The position numbers and the translations under genes were made by a program. DNA of 64,000 bases, taken from positions 124,001 to 188,000 of the forward strand of contig JAOQAI010000016.1 in assembly GCA_025963645.1 (NCBI GenBank), written 5' to 3'. The notes under the pieces are model-generated. The model was not told the origin of the DNA. It searched no databases and saw nothing but the letters and a program-made list of their open reading frames with translations. Source of the DNA: Flaviaestuariibacter sp. Its GTDB lineage: Bacteria; Bacteroidota; Bacteroidia; Chitinophagales; Chitinophagaceae. This document shows, piece after piece, positions 83-41,543 of this stretch (its first letter is position 1; each line of letters begins with the position of its first letter).

Positions 83-589
83 ATGCAGGAAGCTATTTCG
101 TTAGAGCATATTACCATTCGTACGATAGAGTTGAAAGACAATGCCGCTATCGCGGCCGTCATCCGTAATACCCTAAAAGAGTTCGGCGCCAATCATCCCG
201 GTACCGTGTATTATGATGAAGCAACCGATCATTTGTACGAGTCATTCAGCACCACGCCGCGATCTATTTATCATGTGGCGGAATGGAATGGTGAAATCGT
301 TGGTGGCGGCGGCATCTTTCCTACATCAGGATTACCGGAGGATACCTGCGAGCTGGTAAAAATGTATTTGCTGCCACAAGTAAGAAGCATTGGATTGGGA
401 CGCTTGCTCATCCAAAAGAGCATTGATTTTGCGAAGGATGCCGGCTATAAACAGATCTACCTGGAAACCATGCCGGAACTGAAACAGGCTTTGAACACCT
501 ACGCCAAGTTTGGGTTTGAATACATCAATCACCCGATGGGTAATACCGGGCATTTTGGGTGTGATCTGTGGATGCTAAAACAATTATGA
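83..589 (+). CDS. GNAT family N-acetyltransferase
   Basis: A 168-residue protein with the GNAT fold, which moves an acetyl group from acetyl-CoA to an amine; the substrate cannot be told from sequence. The acetyl-CoA loop is visible as R-S-I-G-L-G at residues 101-106, after the strand E-L-V-K-M-Y-L-L, and the C-terminal strand reads G-F-E-Y-I-N. Length is normal for a single-domain GNAT. The ATG at 83 is the only good start; a box TATTTTG (about 53-59) may be its promoter. Its TGA stop lies in the left arm of a perfect 20-bp inverted repeat shared with the convergent SprT-like gene. Confidence 0.85.
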   Translation: MQEAISLEHITIRTIELKDNAAIAAVIRNTLKEFGANHPGTVYYDEATDHLYESFSTTPRSIYHVAEWNGEIVGGGGIFPTSGLPEDTCELVKMYLLPQVRSIGLGRLLIQKSIDFAKDAGYKQIYLETMPELKQALNTYAKFGFEYINHPMGNTGHFGCDLWMLKQL

Positions 590-670
590 GTTATGAATGA
601 TGAATTATGAGTATCGTGCTATTTCTGGATAATGTCCTTAATTCATAACTATAATTCATCATTCATAACT
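589..670. repeat. Dyad element between convergent genes
   Basis: Positions 589-608 and 651-670 are perfect 20-bp reverse complements separated by 42 bases. The arms are built from variants of the word atgaattatga. The element overlaps the stop codon of the acetyltransferase and encodes the last residues of the SprT-like protein on the other strand. RNA from either side could fold into a long hairpin and end both transcripts, but there is no U-tract of the usual kind. Confidence 0.75.
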
Positions 671-1281
671 TGCTCCACCTCGTACACCGGGCTGAAAAGG
701 TACAGCCGGCCCGTTGCCACCTCCACTCCTTTATACCGCTTCCGCACTTTAGGTCCGCGCTGAAAGATGCGACCATCCGCCGTTTTAAAGAGGTTGCCTT
801 CGGCAATGGCATCAATAAACACGAGGTGACTTTGTTCTTTGTCGTAAGTCTTTAGCGTTCGTAAGAGTGTTTCGTCGGCACAACTGGAGGCTGCCGGATT
901 AGTCAATGAACGTAACAAAGCGGTCTTTATATCCTCCGGGAAAACGTTGTGTTGAACAAATTGCGCCAGCAATTGCCCAAAGATCTTTTTCCATTCGGCG
1001 CCATGTGCCTGTACGCGGTTGCTATAATGCTCGAAGGTGAGAAGATGCGCCAGCTCGTGCAGGAGTGTAATAAGAAAAGAGTATTGATTGAGATTCCCAT
1101 TTACAGAGATGCGGTGCGTTTGGCTACCATGCCGGTGGCGGTAATCGCCCAGTATGCTTTTCCGTTCCCGAGCGACTGTCAGGTGCACTTTATAATGCTG
1201 CAGGTATTGCAGCACCGGCTCATAAGTATTGGGCGGCAAGAAATCCTGCAGTGTGGAAATGGGCGCTTCTTTCTTAGCCAT
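649..1281 (-). CDS. SprT-like zinc metalloprotease domain protein
   Basis: About 210 residues from the ATG at 1281. The zinc-protease motif H-E-L-A-H is at residues 75-79, followed by F-E-H (H85) and H-G-A-E-W (93-97), the pattern of the SprT/Spartan family. Bacterial SprT roles are poorly defined; eukaryotic relatives cut DNA-protein crosslinks. A longer reading from 1323 exists, but the ATG at 1281 overlaps the upstream AtpI-like gene by 8 bases, typical of translational coupling, so I prefer it. The C-terminal residues V-M-N-D-E-L come from the right arm of the dyad element, so the element seems to have replaced or extended the original end. Confidence 0.8.
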   Translation of the reverse strand: MAKKEAPISTLQDFLPPNTYEPVLQYLQHYKVHLTVARERKSILGDYRHRHGSQTHRISVNGNLNQYSFLITLLHELAHLLTFEHYSNRVQAHGAEWKKIFGQLLAQFVQHNVFPEDIKTALLRSLTNPAASSCADETLLRTLKTYDKEQSHLVFIDAIAEGNLFKTADGRIFQRGPKVRKRYKGVEVATGRLYLFSPVYEVEQVMNDEL

Positions 1282-2792: not shown

Positions 2793-5735
2793 ATGTCTAT
2801 GCACCCATTTCGTTTGATTGTCATATCGGTTCTCCTATTCAGCGGCTTTTCCTTAAAAGCCCAGCTTGGCTTTGACCTGGATATAAAAAAACCGGAGCCT
2901 TACGAAAACCGTGAGTTAAAAGCAGAGAAAACACCCGACAAGCCTATCAAGCAGCCTAAAAAACTGCTGCAAAACGCCACTACGCATTACAACTATTTCT
3001 TTAATGCCAACGTAAAGCTGAACGAGATCCTGGACCGGGCGAAAGAAGCGCATAAAGACGATTACACCAAGCTCCTGCCCTTTTACAACTACTCCCTGAA
3101 AGCCCTGGCACCTGATACGGCTTTGCTGGATTCTGTAATAGCCAAGAGCAAAACCGCTATTGTGCTGCATGATCTGCGCAACGACTGGATAGATGATATG
3201 TATATGCTTTGGGGGGCTTCTTATTACCTGCAACAGAATTTCGATTCGGCGTATAATATGTTCCAGTTCATCAACTATGCCTTCGCCGAAAAAGAGAAGG
3301 ATGGTTATTACCGGTATATTGGTAGCCGGATGGATGGAAACAATGCCCTGAGCGTTTCTACCAAAGAAAAAAGCAGTTTAGCCAGAAAAGTTTTTTCCGA
3401 ACCGCCCGCCCGCAACGATGCTTTTATCTGGCAGGTGCGCACCATGATACAACAGGAAGCCTATCCCGAAGCCGGAAGTTTGATCACAACCTTAAAGAAT
3501 GACCCGCTTTTCCCGGAACGCCTGAAAGGCGCTTTGGAAGAAGTGCAGGCGCTTTGGTTTTATAAGCAAGGCTTTTGGGACAGTTCGGCGCATCATCTCG
3601 TGAAAGCTTTGGGCGAAGCCAGGAAAGGCCAAGAGCGTGCCCGGTGGGAATACCTGGCAGCACAAATGTTTGAAAGAACAGGACTGACCGAACTGGCGAA
3701 GATCTATTATGGCAAAGTTGTTAAGGAAACGACTGACCCTGTGATGGAAGTGTATGCCCGCCTCAACCTGATCCGCATTAATAAAGCGGGTAATGACAAT
3801 GCCGATATTGATAAGAACATTGCCGAATTGCTGAAGATGGCGCGACGCGATAAATATGCCGATTACCGCGATGTGATCTACTCCATGATCGCACGGATGG
3901 AGTTGGAGAAAGGTGATTTTATGCTGGCACAGGGTTATTTGCTTAAGGCATCTAAATACAAAAGCGATAACCCGGTTGCGAATAACGAAGCCTATTTACA
4001 ACTCGCCGATCTTTCCTTTACGCAGCGCAAATACGGTTTGGCGGCTTCTCTTTATGACAGTGTTCAACTGGCTAGCCTTGCCGCAGAAGATGTGGACAGG
4101 ATCAATACCCGCAAGCCGCTTCTTACTTCACTCGTTGGGTTCACCAATATTATAGATAGACAGGACAGCCTGCAACGCATAGCCGCTATGCCGGAAGAAG
4201 AACGCTCTGCTTATGTAAAGCGTTTGGTTCGTCAATTGCGCCGCCAGCAAGGATTGAAGGATGAAGCCGCTGCCAGTGGCGGAGGTCCTATTAATGCTCC
4301 TGCCCCATTCGATCCTTTCGGCGGCAGCAGTTCAAAAGGGGAGTGGTATTTTTATAATGATAACTTACGCAAAACCGGCGTAGCAGCGTTCAAGCAGGTT
4401 TGGGGCGGGCGCCCGAATGTTGACAATTGGCGCCGCCAGTCGGATGTGACCATGCAATTGACGAAAAAAGTGCCTGAAAATACCCGCAACGGCAGCGCTA
4501 CTTCTGGTGGTACAGTAGCTGACCCTTTTACTTTTGATGCTATGATGGGAGGCTTGCCATTGACGGCTGTCTCACTGCAAACTTCTAACGACAGTATTCA
4601 ACAGGCGCTGTTTGGCCTAGGCACTTTATATATGAACGATATGGAAGATTATAAAGCTTCCATCGAAACCTTTGAGAAGATCCGCACCCGCTTCACACCG
4701 GTACGTGACCTGGACCAGGTGTTGTTTAATCTTTACTATAGCTATACAAAAACCGGGGATGCGGCGAAAGCCGCGGAAATGAAGCGCTTGCTACTTAGCC
4801 AGTTTCCGAACAGCCGCTATGCTACGATCATAAATACAGGCGCTGATCCGCAATCGAATCAACCGACTGCAACGATCACGAAAACATACGAAGGCATTTA
4901 TGACCTGTTTTTAGAAGGCAGGTTTGCAGAGGCAGAAACCGCCAAGCAAAGAGCCGACAGTCTTTATAAAACAAACTATTGGTCGCCACAACTGCTTTAC
5001 ATTGAAGCGGTGGCCCAGATTCGCCAGAACGACGATAGCCTTGCTAAAAAAACATTGAGTACGCTTATTCAGCAAAACGCCGGGACGCCGTTAGCCGTTA
5101 AAGCAAAGACAATGATTGATGTCCTGGGACGTCGCAAGCAGATCGAAGAAGAATTGCGTAACCTTCAAATAACTCGTCCGCCTGAAGATTCGCTTTTTGT
5201 AGAGCCGATGCCGATAGCAGCGCCAGTGAAGAAAAAGACAGAAGTAGTAATACAGCCTAAGGATACAGCCGTTGTTGTAAAGAAGCCCGTTCCGGTAAAA
5301 GCTACGGCCGATACCTTGCTGAAGAAAGCGCCGGTTGTACAAAAGCCTAATTCGCCCTATTCTTTCAAAGCCGATTCGGCGCATTTTGCCGTGGTGGTAT
5401 TGAATAAAGTGGATGTGGTATTTGTAAACGAAGCGAAGAATTCCTTCTTACGATTCACCCAAGGCTTTTCCGATCGTCCGCTGCAAGGCATGATCGTGCC
5501 GGTTAATGACGATATTAAATTGCTTCTTATCGGCAATTTTGTTTCGGCTACCAGTGCCATTGGCTATGTGCAGAAAGTGAAGCCTATCGCTGGTTCGCAG
5601 GTAGTGCCCTGGCTTAAGGTGGATAAATATTCCTTTAGTATCATTTCTGCTGAAAACCTGAAAGCAGTGCTGACAGCAAAAGAGTTTGCGGCTTACCAGA
5701 AATTTTTGGAAGAAACGCTGCCGGTGAAATTGTGA
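2793..5735 (+). CDS. porW: Type IX secretion protein PorW/SprE-like, TPR-rich
   Basis: A 980-residue exported protein with a signal peptide (cleavage near residue 24, after L-K-A-Q) and no lipobox cysteine. The N-terminal block with H-Y-N-Y-F-F-N-A-N-V-K-L and the tetratricopeptide repeats through residues 100-700 match the PorW/SprE family, which is needed for T9SS function and gliding. A proline/lysine-rich linker (about 790-850) leads to a C-terminal domain that begins near N-S-P-Y-S-F-K. SprE of Flavobacterium is a lipoprotein; this one lacks the cysteine. The start could be the second ATG at 2799. Other T9SS parts in the window are the PorU2-like and PorV/PorQ-like genes at 51.8-58 kb. 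Confidence 0.75.
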   Translation: MSMHPFRLIVISVLLFSGFSLKAQLGFDLDIKKPEPYENRELKAEKTPDKPIKQPKKLLQNATTHYNYFFNANVKLNEILDRAKEAHKDDYTKLLPFYNYSLKALAPDTALLDSVIAKSKTAIVLHDLRNDWIDDMYMLWGASYYLQQNFDSAYNMFQFINYAFAEKEKDGYYRYIGSRMDGNNALSVSTKEKSSLARKVFSEPPARNDAFIWQVRTMIQQEAYPEAGSLITTLKNDPLFPERLKGALEEVQALWFYKQGFWDSSAHHLVKALGEARKGQERARWEYLAAQMFERTGLTELAKIYYGKVVKETTDPVMEVYARLNLIRINKAGNDNADIDKNIAELLKMARRDKYADYRDVIYSMIARMELEKGDFMLAQGYLLKASKYKSDNPVANNEAYLQLADLSFTQRKYGLAASLYDSVQLASLAAEDVDRINTRKPLLTSLVGFTNIIDRQDSLQRIAAMPEEERSAYVKRLVRQLRRQQGLKDEAAASGGGPINAPAPFDPFGGSSSKGEWYFYNDNLRKTGVAAFKQVWGGRPNVDNWRRQSDVTMQLTKKVPENTRNGSATSGGTVADPFTFDAMMGGLPLTAVSLQTSNDSIQQALFGLGTLYMNDMEDYKASIETFEKIRTRFTPVRDLDQVLFNLYYSYTKTGDAAKAAEMKRLLLSQFPNSRYATIINTGADPQSNQPTATITKTYEGIYDLFLEGRFAEAETAKQRADSLYKTNYWSPQLLYIEAVAQIRQNDDSLAKKTLSTLIQQNAGTPLAVKAKTMIDVLGRRKQIEEELRNLQITRPPEDSLFVEPMPIAAPVKKKTEVVIQPKDTAVVVKKPVPVKATADTLLKKAPVVQKPNSPYSFKADSAHFAVVVLNKVDVVFVNEAKNSFLRFTQGFSDRPLQGMIVPVNDDIKLLLIGNFVSATSAIGYVQKVKPIAGSQVVPWLKVDKYSFSIISAENLKAVLTAKEFAAYQKFLEETLPVKL

Positions 5736-9023: not shown

Positions 9024-10343
9024 TTAGAAAGGTGACTTAATTCCCAACTTGTGTTTGTAGCGTTCGTTCAGTTGCTTTTGCTTGTCATCCAGATTGATCT
9101 TGCGACCTTGAATAAAGGCATCCGTTACGGTACTGGTTTTCATATCCATGATATCGCCGGTGCTGATGATGATATTCGCATCCTTACCAACTTCAATGCT
9201 GCCGGTTTTATCGGCAACACCTAAGGTTTTAGCTGCATTTAAGGTGATAGCTTGCAATGCCGCTTCTTTATCCAAACCATAGGTAGCAGCCGTGCCGGCA
9301 TTGTAAGCCAGGTTGCGGCCACGGGTTTGACCATCTTCGTCATTGATAGCAAACACCACTCCTGCTTTTTGCAGCATGGCGGGTGTTTTAAAAGGCTGGT
9401 CAATATCATCGTCGCCCAAGGTAGGCAGGCTGTGCATTTGGTTCAGGATCACCATGACGTTGTTTTGTTTCAGCAAGTCGGCAATCTGCCAGCTATCGCT
9501 GCCGCCAACAATCACCACATCGAAGTTGAACTCCTTTACAAAATCCAGCGCCACCAGCATTTGCTTTACGGTATTGGCATGTACGTACAGCTTTTGCTTT
9601 TTTTCGAATAAACCTTTTACGGCTGCAAACTTCAGGTTGGTTTCTTCAGGAGTCGCTACGCTGTTGTAAGCTTGTGCCTCGCGAAAGAAACTCTTCATGC
9701 GATCCACTTGCTCCAGCCCTTGCTTTACTACATCTACAGCAGGTTGTTGCGCAGCTCCACCGCCACCAAAACCGCCAAAGCCACGAGGGCGAGCGATCAG
9801 AGCTGGCATGCGGAAGTGAATACCGCCATCAGTCTTATAAGCGGCATCTTCCCAGTTCCAGGCGTCCAGTTGCACTACGGAAGAAGAACCGCTGATGATA
9901 CCGCCTTCCGGTACAATGTTCGCCAACAGGATACCACTGGAGCGTAGCGTGTTGATGATCTTAGAATCAGTATTGTACGCTACAATCGAACGGATGCTTG
10001 GATTCAATTCACCCAGTTCTTGCACGTCGCTGGTAGCACGAACCGAAGGTGTTTCGACCAAGCCCAGGTTAGCTACCGGCAGGATCAATCCCGGATAAAC
10101 CTGCTTGCCCTGACCATCGACAACGGTAGCACCGGCAGGAATTTTTACATCTTTACCAACCGCTGCTATCTTACCATCAGTGATTACGATTGATCCGTTT
10201 TGAATAACGGTTCCATTACCTACATGAATAGTTGTATTCGTAATAACGGTGGAGCCGGTTTGTTTCGGCGTTGGGTACACCGTTTCCTGCGCAGTGGCAG
10301 CAAGGGCACTTAATAAGAGGAAGTTTAGAAGTATCTTTTTCAT
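9024..10343 (-). CDS. Secreted amidohydrolase-like protein, metal ligands degenerate
   Basis: A 439-residue exported protein (signal peptide about 1-18, A-L-A-A-T-A-Q) with the composite fold of imidazolonepropionase-like amidohydrolases: a beta-sandwich (G-S-I-V-I-T-D-G-K-I-A-A-V-G) and a C-terminal G-S-I-E-V-G-K-D-A-N-I strand pair. The H-x-H after strand 1 is absent: the site reads Y-P-G-L-I-L-P-V-A-N. So it may not bind the usual metals. It lies downstream of a larger amidohydrolase gene on the same strand, and the two products may form a complex. A glycine/phenylalanine-rich loop (about 190-200) is unusual. Substrate unknown. Confidence 0.75.
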   Translation of the reverse strand: MKKILLNFLLLSALAATAQETVYPTPKQTGSTVITNTTIHVGNGTVIQNGSIVITDGKIAAVGKDVKIPAGATVVDGQGKQVYPGLILPVANLGLVETPSVRATSDVQELGELNPSIRSIVAYNTDSKIINTLRSSGILLANIVPEGGIISGSSSVVQLDAWNWEDAAYKTDGGIHFRMPALIARPRGFGGFGGGGAAQQPAVDVVKQGLEQVDRMKSFFREAQAYNSVATPEETNLKFAAVKGLFEKKQKLYVHANTVKQMLVALDFVKEFNFDVVIVGGSDSWQIADLLKQNNVMVILNQMHSLPTLGDDDIDQPFKTPAMLQKAGVVFAINDEDGQTRGRNLAYNAGTAATYGLDKEAALQAITLNAAKTLGVADKTGSIEVGKDANIIISTGDIMDMKTSTVTDAFIQGRKINLDDKQKQLNERYKHKLGIKSPF

Positions 10344-10359
10344 TTTAATATTTTTAGGG

Positions 10360-10381
10360 GTTTAAGGTTTAAAGTATAAGG
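10360..10381. repeat. Inverted repeat arm flanking four-helix-bundle gene (left)
   Basis: The 22-base arm matches the reverse complement of 10792-10813 at 20 of 22 positions. The word family gtttaagg/taaagt continues to about 10395. It lies 17 bases upstream of the start of the 439-residue amidohydrolase gene. Confidence 0.8.
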
Positions 10382-10391
10382 TTTAAGGTTC

Positions 10392-10790
10392 TTAAGGTGC
10401 AACTTTCTTTCTGGCTCCGGCGATGGGTGACTTTTGAAGCGATTTAATAAAATTCTGAATCAGACCGCTGATGGAAATAACTTCTGCTTTTAAAAAATCG
10501 AACTCCTCTTTTGTCAAAAAACTACGATCATACGCTCTATAAAGCTGAGACCTTAACTCGCCACACGAACCTTTCGCATAACCAAGGAACTGAATAAATT
10601 CACCCTTTGTTCCTCTTTCAAATCCTTCTGCAATATTATCCATGACAGAACCAGAAGAACCTTCAATTTGATGGATCAATCGAAAGCTTTTTTTAAATTT
10701 TCCCTGGTCAATAAGATCGCCCAAGAACTTGCAAACAGCTTTTGCCTTCTGCCAGCTTTTAATTTCCTCAAAAGATCTTATTGTCGCCAT
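10392..10790 (-). CDS. Four-helix bundle (S23/IVS-type) protein
   Basis: A 132-residue, mostly helical, basic protein. The sequence I-R-S-F-E-E-I-K-S-W-Q-K-A at the N-terminus, then I-E-G-S-S-G-S-V-M-D-N-I-A-E-G-F-E-R and F-L-G-Y-A-K-G-S-C-G-E-L-R-S-Q, are the hallmarks of the four-helix bundle family (TIGR02436/PF05635) first seen in intervening sequences of 23S rRNA genes and related to Avd of diversity-generating retroelements. The molecular role is not known; nucleic-acid binding is likely. It sits between two amidohydrolase genes, and inverted repeats lie just outside both ends, so it looks like an insertion. Confidence 0.88.
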   Translation of the reverse strand: MATIRSFEEIKSWQKAKAVCKFLGDLIDQGKFKKSFRLIHQIEGSSGSVMDNIAEGFERGTKGEFIQFLGYAKGSCGELRSQLYRAYDRSFLTKEEFDFLKAEVISISGLIQNFIKSLQKSPIAGARKKVAP

Positions 10791-10791
10791 A

Positions 10792-10813
10792 CCTTAAACT
10801 TCAAACCTTAAAC
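10792..10813. repeat. Inverted repeat arm flanking four-helix-bundle gene (right)
   Basis: The partner of 10360-10381 (20 of 22 complementary). It begins two bases outside the start codon of the four-helix-bundle gene and ends 7 bases short of the stop codon of the large amidohydrolase gene. Confidence 0.8.
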
Positions 10814-10820
10814 GTTGAAC

Positions 10821-13800
10821 TTATTGTTGCACATGGTCTGCGTCTATCGTTAAGAAGCCATGGCTGTGAAGATGATCAGAGCAAGTATGCATGATAGAAT
10901 ACGTTGGCATGGGAGGCGTTACCGGAGCACCGCTACGCTTTTCGCCATTCATTTTTTTCACTAAGCGAAGACGCTCGGCATCTAACTGCTTTTGCAATTG
11001 CTCGTCTTTCGCTCTGTCGAAATAAACGATACCATCGACAATCGTGTAAAGCGACTTTGCATAAATGCTTAATGGGTTATCGCTCCAAACGACCACGTCG
11101 CCATCTTTACCTGCTTTCAAGCTACCTACATATTGGTCTACGTGGAGCATCTTAGCCGGGTTCAGCGTTACCATCTTCAGTGCCTCCTCTTCCGATACAC
11201 CGCCGTACTTCACAATTTTGGCCGCTTCCTGGTTTAGGCGACGCGCCATTTCTGCATCATCAGAATTGATAGCCACGTTCAAACCTACTTTATGCATGAT
11301 GGCAGCATTGTAAGGAATAGCATCCTGCACTTCCATTTTGTAAGCCCACCAGTCAGAGAAGGTAGAAGCATTGGCACCATGTGCCTTCATCTTATCAGCT
11401 ACTTTATAGCCTTCCAAGATATGGGTGAAGGTGTTATACTTATAACCCATGCGGTTAGCCACTTCCATCGCGCCATTTATCTCGCTTTGTACATAGGAGT
11501 GACAAGTAATGAAACGCTTGTTATCCAGAATTTCTACTAGTGCATCCAGTTCCAAGTCGCGGCGGGGAGCAACCGTACCTTTCTTCCCTTTATTTGCTTC
11601 GTACTCTGCCCATCCTCTTTTGTAGTCTTTTGCACGGCTAAAGGCATCTACCAATACCTGCTCCACACCCATACGAGTATCCGGGTAGCGGTTGTTTTGT
11701 CCGGCTTGTGCGGGTGAGCGCTTCACGTTTTCACCAAGGGCAAACTTGATCTGTCCGGGCCAGTTTTGAAACTTCAGGTCTTCCGCATTGGCACCCCAGC
11801 GCAATTTGATCATTTGCGTTTGACCACCGATCACATTCGCCGAGCCATGAAGAATATGCGAAGATGTAACACCACCGCTCAATTGACGATAGATGTTGAT
11901 ATCATCGGGGGCGATATTATCGGCGATGCGTACTTCAGAGGTAACGCTTTGTCCACCTTCGTTAATAGAAGCTGCGGCGATATGCGAGTGTTCATCAATG
12001 ATACCGGCTGTTACGTGCTTGCCGGTTCCGTCAATTACACGGGCACCTGCGTCTGACAATCCTTTGCCAACGCTTGCTATTTTACCACCACGAATTAAAA
12101 CATCTGCACCTTGCAGTACGCCTTCTTTTTCATTGGTCCAAACGGTAGCATTTCTGATCAGGATCGTCTCTTGCTTTGGAGCAGCGCCTTCTTCCCAGCC
12201 GTATGGCTCAAAAGGAAAAGTCACTTTCCCCAATGGTGCTGTAGGGCGCTTGCGGGCACTGTCTACTTTTTGCACACCGGGCTGGTCATAAACGGCTGTC
12301 CACGTAAAGCTGTTACCAGCGCTGTCTGTTCCAAATCCGCTCCAGCTATTGTCGTTTACAATACCGCTTAGGTTCAGGTTTTGTCCTCCGCGTCTTTCCG
12401 GCGCTACGTTGATGCGCACCTGGCGACCGTCATAGTAAAATTTAGAGGTAACGGTGTCTTTGCTACCAATCAAGCTGGCGGCTGTATTGCTCTTAAAGTC
12501 CAACGTATAATTTACAGGACCAGTCGGCGTGTTCAACACTACTTTATAGGTACCTTTTGGATCTTTCCAGGAATCATCTTTGATACTGTATTTTGTTCCC
12601 TGCACCCAATTTTGAAAAATGGTCGTGTTAGCGGCAAACACAGGTCCGGACGTGATCAGGAAGTTTGCCCATTTACCAGCATCCAGGCTCCCCACTTGAT
12701 CGTACACACCTAAAACAGTTGCTGGTGTTTTAGTTAGCGCATTCATAGCAGCCGTTTCTGTCAAGCCATGATTAAACGCCGTGCGCAGGCTGGTCATAAA
12801 TGACTTCACGTCACGCAGGTCAGCTGTAGTTAGGCAAAAGGGAATACCTGCTTTTTCAAAAGCCGCCGGGTTGGTCGGTGCCAGTTCCCAATGCTTCATA
12901 TCCGTTACTGAAACCAGGCGGGCATCATTCGGGTCTTCCACGTCCATAGCTTGCGGGTAGTTCATGGGCACAATGAAAGTGGCTTTGGTAGCCGCCATTT
13001 CTTTGATGCGCTGGTATTCATTGCCACCTGCTTTGATGATGTATTGCACACCGAATTCATCGCCGATCTTATCAGCACGGAGATTGTTCCATTTGTCGCC
13101 GCCTTCGAATATTTGCGGTAAGCCTTGCTCGTCGTTCCAGGCTTGCAGGGTCAGGTTCAATCCTTCCTGTGCAGGCTTGGTTTTGTACCACTGCGCATCC
13201 AAATAAGTCTGGCGCAACAGGGCAATGCTGCCCATTAGCGAACTCGGATACGATTGGCTCGACGTTCCTTTATTGAAAGAGTAGTGAGCAGATGCCCGAT
13301 CCTTCAGGATCACCATATTTTCTTTGTCATTTGCCAATGAAACGAGTGTACCGGTGCCGCGGGCAATGCCATCACGCACATGCGATAACACAGTACCAAA
13401 ACCTGACTCCCGTAAGGTCTTTGCTTTCGCATCATCTACTGCAAAAACGCGGAAAGCATCTGCGTCGCTTTTGATGGCTTGGTTCCATCCATAGGCACCT
13501 TTAGTAGCCGTTGCTAGTTGTGGCTGCTGCGCAAAATTGAATCCACCCGCACCTGGTGGCCGTTGCGGCAGCGAAGTACCGTAGTCTGCATAAATGTCTA
13601 CGAACGAAGGGTAAAGATATTTACCCGTGCAGTTGATCTCGACAGCTCCGGCTGGCACTTTGCCACCGGCTGTAACAGAAATAATTTTACCATCCTTGAT
13701 AACCATCGTGGCGTTGGACAGTGTGGTTGAAGCATCTTTAACAATTGTGGCATTGGTGAAAGCGTAATGACCGTGTCTTGGATCAGCGATCCCGTTTTCC

Positions 13801-13880
13801 GGGAAGGTAGGCTGTGCCCAAAGACGCGAACACGACAGCATCACGCCAAGCACCAGTGCTAAGCATTCCTTTTTTCTCAT
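10821..13880 (-). CDS. Large secreted amidohydrolase, two domains
   Basis: A 1019-residue exported protein (signal peptide about 1-22). It holds two tandem amidohydrolase-like modules. The first (about 30-440) has the outer beta strands, but its metal site is lost: Y-P-S-F-V-D-I-Y-A-D takes the place of D-x-H-x-H. A beta-rich linker follows (450-560). The second module (about 570-985) keeps H-S-H in T-A-G-I-I-D-E-H-S-H, plus later histidines (C-H-S-Y, T-H-I-L-E-G) and N-S-D-D, so it is probably the active one. Likely a periplasmic hydrolase of cyclic amides or peptides; substrate unknown. The C-terminal 30 residues are histidine-rich. It leads the leftward amidohydrolase operon. Confidence 0.85.
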   Translation of the reverse strand: MRKKECLALVLGVMLSCSRLWAQPTFPENGIADPRHGHYAFTNATIVKDASTTLSNATMVIKDGKIISVTAGGKVPAGAVEINCTGKYLYPSFVDIYADYGTSLPQRPPGAGGFNFAQQPQLATATKGAYGWNQAIKSDADAFRVFAVDDAKAKTLRESGFGTVLSHVRDGIARGTGTLVSLANDKENMVILKDRASAHYSFNKGTSSQSYPSSLMGSIALLRQTYLDAQWYKTKPAQEGLNLTLQAWNDEQGLPQIFEGGDKWNNLRADKIGDEFGVQYIIKAGGNEYQRIKEMAATKATFIVPMNYPQAMDVEDPNDARLVSVTDMKHWELAPTNPAAFEKAGIPFCLTTADLRDVKSFMTSLRTAFNHGLTETAAMNALTKTPATVLGVYDQVGSLDAGKWANFLITSGPVFAANTTIFQNWVQGTKYSIKDDSWKDPKGTYKVVLNTPTGPVNYTLDFKSNTAASLIGSKDTVTSKFYYDGRQVRINVAPERRGGQNLNLSGIVNDNSWSGFGTDSAGNSFTWTAVYDQPGVQKVDSARKRPTAPLGKVTFPFEPYGWEEGAAPKQETILIRNATVWTNEKEGVLQGADVLIRGGKIASVGKGLSDAGARVIDGTGKHVTAGIIDEHSHIAAASINEGGQSVTSEVRIADNIAPDDINIYRQLSGGVTSSHILHGSANVIGGQTQMIKLRWGANAEDLKFQNWPGQIKFALGENVKRSPAQAGQNNRYPDTRMGVEQVLVDAFSRAKDYKRGWAEYEANKGKKGTVAPRRDLELDALVEILDNKRFITCHSYVQSEINGAMEVANRMGYKYNTFTHILEGYKVADKMKAHGANASTFSDWWAYKMEVQDAIPYNAAIMHKVGLNVAINSDDAEMARRLNQEAAKIVKYGGVSEEEALKMVTLNPAKMLHVDQYVGSLKAGKDGDVVVWSDNPLSIYAKSLYTIVDGIVYFDRAKDEQLQKQLDAERLRLVKKMNGEKRSGAPVTPPMPTYSIMHTCSDHLHSHGFLTIDADHVQQ

Positions 13881-21816: not shown

Positions 21817-21927
21817 AGCAGTTGTTAGGCTCAAATATATCCTGACCGGAATACAAAGCGCCGCCATTTGACGTTATTTTGCAGTATTATTTTACGAACG
21901 GGCTGAATGAGAGGACGAAACACAAAG

Positions 21928-22039
21928 GTTTCTTGTTTCTCGTTTCTCGTTCCTTCATAATACAACCTGTCACCTTGAAGCTCACCCAATTTATAAGCCG
22001 GACGGCATAAGCCAAAACGAGAAACCAGAAACGAGAAAC
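21928..22039. repeat. Dyad element upstream of the malic enzyme gene
   Basis: The arm 21928-21952 pairs with 22015-22039 at 22 of 25 positions. The word gtttctcgtttct recurs in each arm. The right arm ends 14 bases before the ATG of maeB, so the hairpin would lie in the mRNA leader if transcription begins upstream. Confidence 0.75.
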
Positions 22040-22053
22040 GGTTATTTAAAAAC

Positions 22054-41458: not shown

Positions 41459-41465
41459 TTTGTTA

Positions 41466-41537
41466 GTTTAAGGTCTAAAGTCTTAAGTTTAAAGTTTGCA
41501 TAATCAGCACTAACCTTAAACCTTTAACTTTAAACTT
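41466..41537. repeat. Dyad element, same word family as 10.4/10.8 kb
   Basis: The left arm (41466-41497) is built from gtttaagg/taaagt/tttaaagt words and aligns with the left arm at 10360-10390. The right arm (41511-41537) is its complement; the best paired block is 41485-41496 with 41526-41537 (12 of 12). The element lies in the transcribed spacer between tRNA-Trp and secE. Confidence 0.75.
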
Positions 41538-41543
41538 CGTTCG

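Follow-up and report, generated by a model that had tools for sequence, protein, structure and literature searches.

An S23-type gene that is enclosed by inverted repeats and fills the junction between two co-directional amidohydrolase genes raises the question of whether gene and repeats form one mobile unit, and whether such a unit acts as RNA or as DNA. The window, by which we mean the whole analysed stretch of 64,000 nucleotides of Flaviaestuariibacter sp. DNA, holds this locus and three further hairpins (Table 1). The S23 protein exceeds the curated cut-offs of both family profiles, with 95.1 bits for PF05635 (cut-off 33.8) and 94.4 bits for TIGR02436 (cut-off 24), and it is matched by PDB entry 2gsc_A with an E value of 3e-5, 2GSC being a solved relative. 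The arms at 10360-10382 and 10791-10813 comprise 23 nt and are 91% complementary; extended to 10360-10389 and 10791-10820, they comprise 30 nt with 80% complementarity. This confirms the S23-type gene, its complementary arms and its position between two amidohydrolase genes of the same strand, all of which the initial annotation had named. What had been missed is that the arms are made of heptamers, that the heptamer word is tied to the S23 subfamily and that arrays exist without S23. Each arm of the window unit is a heptamer run, GTTTAAG GTTTAAA GTATAAG GTTTAAG, and the unit starts right behind the TAA (10823-10821) of the upstream amidohydrolase gene.

Table 1. Features of the S23 unit, its neighbours and the hairpins without S23 in the window.
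Feature	Position	Strand	Remarks
Whole unit: arm, S23 gene, arm	10360-10820	-	outer limits uncertain by some bases
S23 / four-helix bundle protein gene	10392-10790	-	132 aa, ATG start; PF05635 and TIGR02436 profiles
Arm 5' of the S23 gene, heptamer array	10791-10820	-	minus strand reads GTTCAACGTTTAAGGTTTGAAGTTTAAGGT
Arm 3' of the S23 gene, inverted heptamer array	10360-10390	+	plus strand reads GTTTAAGGTTTAAAGTATAAGGTTTAAGGTT
Upstream host gene, amidohydrolase	10821-13880	-	1019 aa; stop codon touches the unit
Downstream host gene, amidohydrolase	9024-10343	-	439 aa
Hairpin of heptamer arrays without S23, ATGAATT type	582-672		arms 589-608/651-670, 100% complementary
Hairpin of heptamer arrays without S23, GTTTCTC/GAGAAAC	21926-22042		arms 21928-21951/22016-22039, 92%
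Hairpin without S23, GTTTAAG/GTCTAAA units	41463-41538		beside tRNA-Trp

According to the gene calls and profiles for the 64-kb window, S23 is the sole ORF between the arms, with no transposase or other known catalytic gene beside it. At an array threshold of 28 nt with 80% match at lag 7 or 8, the window contains five heptamer arrays, all intergenic, while five shuffled sequences contain none. One of the five is the 3' arm of the S23 unit; the 5' arm falls just under the threshold.

The arms are a general property of S23 genes. The source genome (G000, 63% complete) has 12 PF05635 hits, 11 of them over the cut-off. At eight of these hits the repeat finder detected arms around the gene, each with its own sequence, and by eye heptamer-like runs stand beside all 12, on one side only at the fragment L012. 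S23 hits are present in 17 of the 19 genomes searched, which comprise G000 and its relatives; three of 120 loci were without a hit, and 92 of the 125 hits were used after partial hits, short flanks and duplicates had been dropped. Matching inverted arms (score of at least 14) enclose 81 of these 92 full-length genes, including all 10 full-length ones in G000, compared with 4 of 159 control genes taken from these loci and about 5% of 1095 cross-paired flanks. Eleven S23 genes have no arms at this threshold, and direct-orientation arms are found at only 16 of the 92. The autocorrelation of the arms peaks at lags 7, 14 and 21 and more weakly at 8, which is not clear in the controls.

A wider scan covered the best 80 loci of at least 578 confirmed relatives, from which 94 of 103 hits (84 genomic, 10 viral) were used. 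Within these best 80 loci, arms occur at 68 of the 84 genomic S23 genes, whereas the rate is 24 of 282 among control genes and 6.6% among cross-pairs; they also occur at 6 of the 10 S23 genes on viral contigs. A third set, with hits from 30 loci of which two repeat earlier ones, has arms at 24 of 27 S23 genes. The initial annotation had proposed to compare the flanking dyads of family genes with chance, and they are found far above it. Armed S23 genes come from records of Bacteroidota, Clostridia, Planctomycetota, Atribacterota, SAR324, KSB1, Desulfosarcina and Gracilibacteria. One query against a phage collection gave no S23 match. A KSB1 record (L226) has two matches to Acido-Lenti-1 RNA, at 4026-4071 and 4599-4644, within about 1.2 kb of an S23 gene.

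The same counts bear on the simplest view of the arms, that they are slippage-born microsatellites beside unrelated genes and pair by coincidence. Slippage would fit lone heptamer arrays, which do occur, the S23-free genome G005 included, and it would fit varying copy number, as the arm repeat number differs between the near-identical L244 and L245. It does not fit the excess of matching own pairs over cross-pairs and control genes nor the scarcity of direct orientation, and we regard it as almost certainly wrong.

If the unit is an insertion, relatives should possess the same junction without it. An empty syntenic site with adjacent amidohydrolase genes, which the initial annotation had suggested looking for, is indeed found in 11 of 16 loci; two are filled with S23, and L127, L135 and L136 could not be scored. 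The two genes are 3-84 nt apart in these 11 relatives. The earlier estimate of about 60 bases is therefore right in order, but too long for the closest case, G008, where the junction measures 10 nt and the large amidohydrolase, at 87% identity, is the most similar neighbour gene.

S23 genes with GTTCAC words lie at the same amidohydrolase junction in G003, G024 and G060. The S23 gene closest to that of the window comes from G044, with 62% identity, and sits with GTTTAAGG arms at a site without these amidohydrolases. The tree joins the window gene with those of G044 and G068 (support 90/87, not starred). A single origin of the four junction S23 genes was considered and rejected, since one clade is incompatible with the data (p-AU 0.004). 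The junction has therefore been entered more than once, or its element has been replaced. A bare label count on the S23 tree shows no clustering beyond chance (75 of 500 shuffles were as low). At the amidohydrolase junction of G011 (L129), which lacks S23, a single array-like stretch, GTTTGTTGGGTTTGTAGTTTG, may be what is left of an earlier unit.

Filled and empty sites can be compared at close range on cyanobacterial plasmids, which came from a search separate from the wider scan. Trichormus (L246) and Scytonema (L282) carry an S23 unit that Nostoc (L280) and Microchaete (L281) do not, and around the site the latter two are 97.7 and 97.5% identical to L246. The net insert is 428 bp in L246 and 414 bp in L282, with GTAAT repeated at its ends. 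The comparison of L246 with L280 gives a clean insertion with GTAAT as 5-bp target duplication; it is the only clean one and concerns a plasmid relative, not the window copy. For the window copy a target duplication is not seen because there is no close filled/empty pair. Pair D (L284 versus L297) concerns a related unit located elsewhere, which in L284 is bordered by TTCTA on each side. This pair failed the strict overlap test (-1) because a neighbouring base is missing in L284 and the sister L296 reads TTCTG. For the unit of L297 (pair F), only ATG is repeated, as read by eye. In all three cases, the candidate duplication reaches the stop codon of the gene upstream. No clean ends were obtained for pairs A (L244), C (L242 versus L289-L291, about 90% identity) and E (L287 versus L293). 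Empty junctions and filled/empty plasmid pairs together bear out the proposal that the unit behaves as an insertion. The accompanying proposal that it enters RNA-coding sites is not supported: the units lie at junctions between genes, in many cases where an upstream co-directional gene ends in its stop codon, and not in RNA genes.

Several other plasmid junctions deserve description. In Nostoc C052 (plasmid pC052_E, L283 1145-1278), the junction that holds S23 in L246 contains an arm of the same word and behind it a short stretch that by eye resembles an S23 start, a decayed copy of the unit. In Nostoc ATCC 53789 (plasmid pNsp_c, L278 1121-1382), an inverted pair of GGGAACT-type arrays without S23 occupies the junction where L244 has S23. 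S23 genes are also located inside CRISPR operons of cyanobacterial plasmids, in the orders cas10-S23-cmr3 and cas6-S23-cas4 (L277 2492-2848, L286 1501-1860, L287 1483-1851). By eye, heptamer arms stand on both sides in L277 and L286 and a long array upstream in L287, and because of them these genes look like inserted units. The cas6-cas4 junction of Dolichospermum (L293 820-1066) has another inverted repeat by eye, where Anabaena sp. 90 has S23 and a long array. The part of PMC3936711 considered here records S23 genes in cas loci, where cas4 and cas6 often accompany them.

Arm words vary from element to element, also within one genome; the types seen among other S23 elements include GTGAGAC and GTTCACTT. 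For non-syntenic S23 pairs, sharing of arm words follows protein identity: 14 of 15 pairs share them at 70% identity or more, 13 of 22 at 60-70% (the arms of the other nine are not shared) and 29 of 79 at 50-60%, compared with 6.4% of 2239 unrelated pairs. G003 provides an example in L045 and L047, two related copies at different sites with common arm words. Conversely, L078 and L097 occupy one site with S23 proteins 67% identical, yet their words differ. As related S23 genes share arm words at unrelated sites, gene and arms move together. Shared words are what copies of one element should show and would be no proof that the protein reads the word; common descent alone accounts for them in related elements. 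GTTTAA words are found on two branches of the S23 tree, and their union in one clade is not rejected (p-AU 0.14). Among 11 syntenic pairs with at least 60% identity, arms match better within an element than between orthologues in 10 of 10 pairs, a comparison biased because the arms had been trimmed on the match within. Concerted evolution of the arms is only suggested by this finding.

Arrays also occur apart from S23. Two of the three window hairpins without the gene, those at 21926-22042 and 41463-41538, are by eye absent from the aligned G008 junctions. The array at 41463 has its best match to any S23 arm, a score of 13, with the arms of the window itself, which is below the reversed control of 17. 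At the tRNA-Trp junction of G003 (L346), a different inverted repeat is seen by eye in place of this hairpin. The 861 kb analysed in G000 contain 47 arrays, 35 of them intergenic, compared with one in shuffled sequence. When the 32 arrays not beside S23 are matched to the S23 arms of the genus, they beat reversed controls in 21 cases versus 8, with 3 ties (p 0.001). The mean match of G000 arrays without S23 is 13.98 to S23 arms of their own genome, 14.16 to those of G001 and 13.89 to those of G003. Own arms are thus matched no better than foreign ones, a result that does not support action in trans. In three S23-rich genomes, 47 of 81 arrays without S23 have an inverted partner within 150 nt, versus 1 of 12 in the S23-free G005 (p 0.0012). 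The array density per Mb is 30 in G005, 37.5 in G009, 40.7 in G000 and 85 in G003. Since G005 lies near G009 and G000, only inverted pairing differs, judged on one S23-free genome. Another repeat type, intergenic arrays with a period of 11-12, is represented in G005 (L347-L366) by 25 arrays in 400 kb, compared with 6 in G000 (861 kb), none in G003 and two in G009 (400 kb each).

Inverted ends, a short target duplication and small derivatives without a gene are characteristic of MITEs and insertion sequences. The S23 units share the inverted ends and the derivatives lacking S23, and one plasmid relative also has a short duplication; they differ in containing no transposase and in having ends that are not conserved between elements. 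A MITE that happens to hold a gene, moved in trans by an ordinary transposase with S23 as cargo, would explain the MITE-like ends, the 5-bp duplication and the hairpins without S23. One transposase could hardly read by sequence all the different ends within one genome, and such arms are rare at other genes, as the control counts show. We consider passive transport improbable. In REP/RAYT systems, inverted repeats flank a gene, and palindromes without the gene are spread over the genome. The S23 unit resembles them in both respects, but S23 is the only gene inside the window copy, with no Y1/HUH transposase, and the arms are heptamer arrays that vary between elements.

The orientation of the units was determined for 171 armed elements, viral loci included, whose arm score was at least 14, whose coding sequence was unique and whose neighbours were both predicted to be long open frames. 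Both neighbours run in the element's own direction in 123 cases and opposite to it in 12 (p 2e-24). With a co-directional upstream neighbour, the median start of the arm is 2 nt ahead of that gene's end, and in 73 of 143 cases the arm starts within 8 nt of this end. On the sense strand, the upstream arm has more G than C in 111 of 135 loci and less in 18. The mostly sense orientation means that read-through from the host operon could express S23.

A preference for the sense strand is also what an RNA-level element would show, in which the two arms base-pair within the host transcript, RNase III cleaves the resulting stem and the released RNA is copied back at another place. The known precedent is the intervening sequence (IVS) in 23S rRNA of Coxiella burnetii, for which the part of PMC4990558 used here describes a 28-bp stem cut by RNase III, GACAGAT heptamers before the S23 ORF, inverted arms around this ORF, a length of about 428 nt and variation in repeat number. 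The complementary ends around an S23 ORF are found in the window unit as well. For an mRNA stem, an excess of G-U over A-C mismatches between the arms is expected. We count 222 G-U and 242 A-C mismatches, or 51 versus 52 by locus with 32 ties. The stem in an mRNA with the gene in its loop, as the initial annotation had pictured it, is therefore not supported as a selected feature, and this lack of excess is expected of a DNA-level repeat. Reverse transcriptase (RVT_1) is detected in 6 of 19 genomes and is absent from G001, G007 and G009, which have the most S23 hits. G007 and G009 are 99 and 100% complete and have 18 and 17 S23 hits without any RVT_1 match. Dependence on reverse transcriptase was rejected on this ground. 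Both results favour a DNA-level element, and copying through RNA appears rather unlikely. Diversity-generating retroelements are connected to the family through Avd (4DWL), which is related to PF05635 (2GSC) in the portion of PMC10053308 at hand; for the units described here, an RVT_1 match is missing from G007 and G009 and also from G000 at its 63% completeness.

S23 itself is under purifying selection where this is measurable. Among 14 S23 pairs, three with real divergence give dN/dS values of 0.055, 0.096 and 0.121, which are rough because the synonymous distance exceeds 1. In eight pairs synonymous change is saturated and pN is low, and three near-identical pairs, one of them at 0.86, carry little information. 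Selection on the protein is compatible with a host regulatory cassette, in which S23 binds heptamer operators at its own gene and elsewhere, controls operons and spreads by ordinary gene transfer. Arms that often adjoin start and stop codons and arrays without S23 elsewhere would fit such a role. A clean insertion with target duplication, the same arms at unrelated sites and the patchy presence at one junction speak against it, and we assign little probability to a mere regulatory cassette.

Insertion, the association of gene and arms, orientation and selection on the protein are observations. Beyond them, we consider it probable that the window unit is one copy of a widespread mobile element without transposase, which acts at the level of DNA and whose S23 protein would recognise its own heptamers. 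The element is about 0.42-0.46 kb long. It has one S23 gene, bordered on either side by an array of repeats of 7 nt, sometimes 8 nt, and the two arrays are inverted relative to each other. The S23 ring would bind its own heptamer word at both ends and pair the ends as a non-catalytic scaffold. It may also act in trans on hairpins without S23. A host enzyme would do the cutting and joining, and a reverse transcriptase seems not to be needed. A ring is suggested by the solved relative, as the Xanthomonas protein is reported to be a homopentamer; S23 proteins have no known function as described in the same source (PMC4990558, in part).

A broader reading is conceivable, though we hold it only tentatively. 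The units would then belong to a large unnamed class in many phyla, whose non-catalytic S23 ring reads the 7-nt word of its subfamily, sets its own ends and, in trans, hairpins without S23, and borrows host enzymes; rRNA IVSs, S23 genes of CRISPR loci and part of the heptamers of cyanobacteria and Bacteroidetes would be offshoots. This reading loses weight because arrays without S23 resemble the S23 arms of their own genome no more than foreign ones.

How far the units are new depends on the comparison with rRNA IVSs. S23 units lie between protein genes, reach 18 hits per genome and use several words in one genome. No 23S rRNA location was found for the window unit, as the Rfam scan of the window matched tRNAs only, and no rRNA was matched in any of 16 loci that were picked, for the most part from beyond Bacteroidota, among the best 80 of the wider scan. 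As far as PMC4990558 describes the rRNA IVS in the part used, it has neither this location nor such copy number, word diversity or derivatives lacking S23. On these grounds the units can be set apart as a new kind; with the rRNA IVS taken as type, they would more cautiously be called a variant of it. A second likeness is to the TAACTGA heptanucleotide repeats of Beggiatoaceae, cyanobacteria and five Bacteroidetes (PMC4679880, in part), which are also intergenic 7-nt repeats, often just upstream of start codons. They differ in having one word and nearly all direct sets, and the main text of that paper contains neither 'S23' nor 'four helix'. In the open-access literature, with most subscription papers and preprints outside its scope, we found nothing that connects S23 genes scattered over genomes with inverted heptamer arms, so that the units apparently represent an undescribed mobile element.

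If S23 and its heptamer word are one mobile unit, this would give S23 a testable role and account for the scattered S23 genes, including those in CRISPR operons. It may also link heptamer repeats that have been reported separately in different phyla, and it would mean that DNA moves although the unit has no recognised transposase, integrase or reverse transcriptase. The many pairs of word and protein form a ready-made set for asking whether a small ring protein reads a repeat, and in what way.
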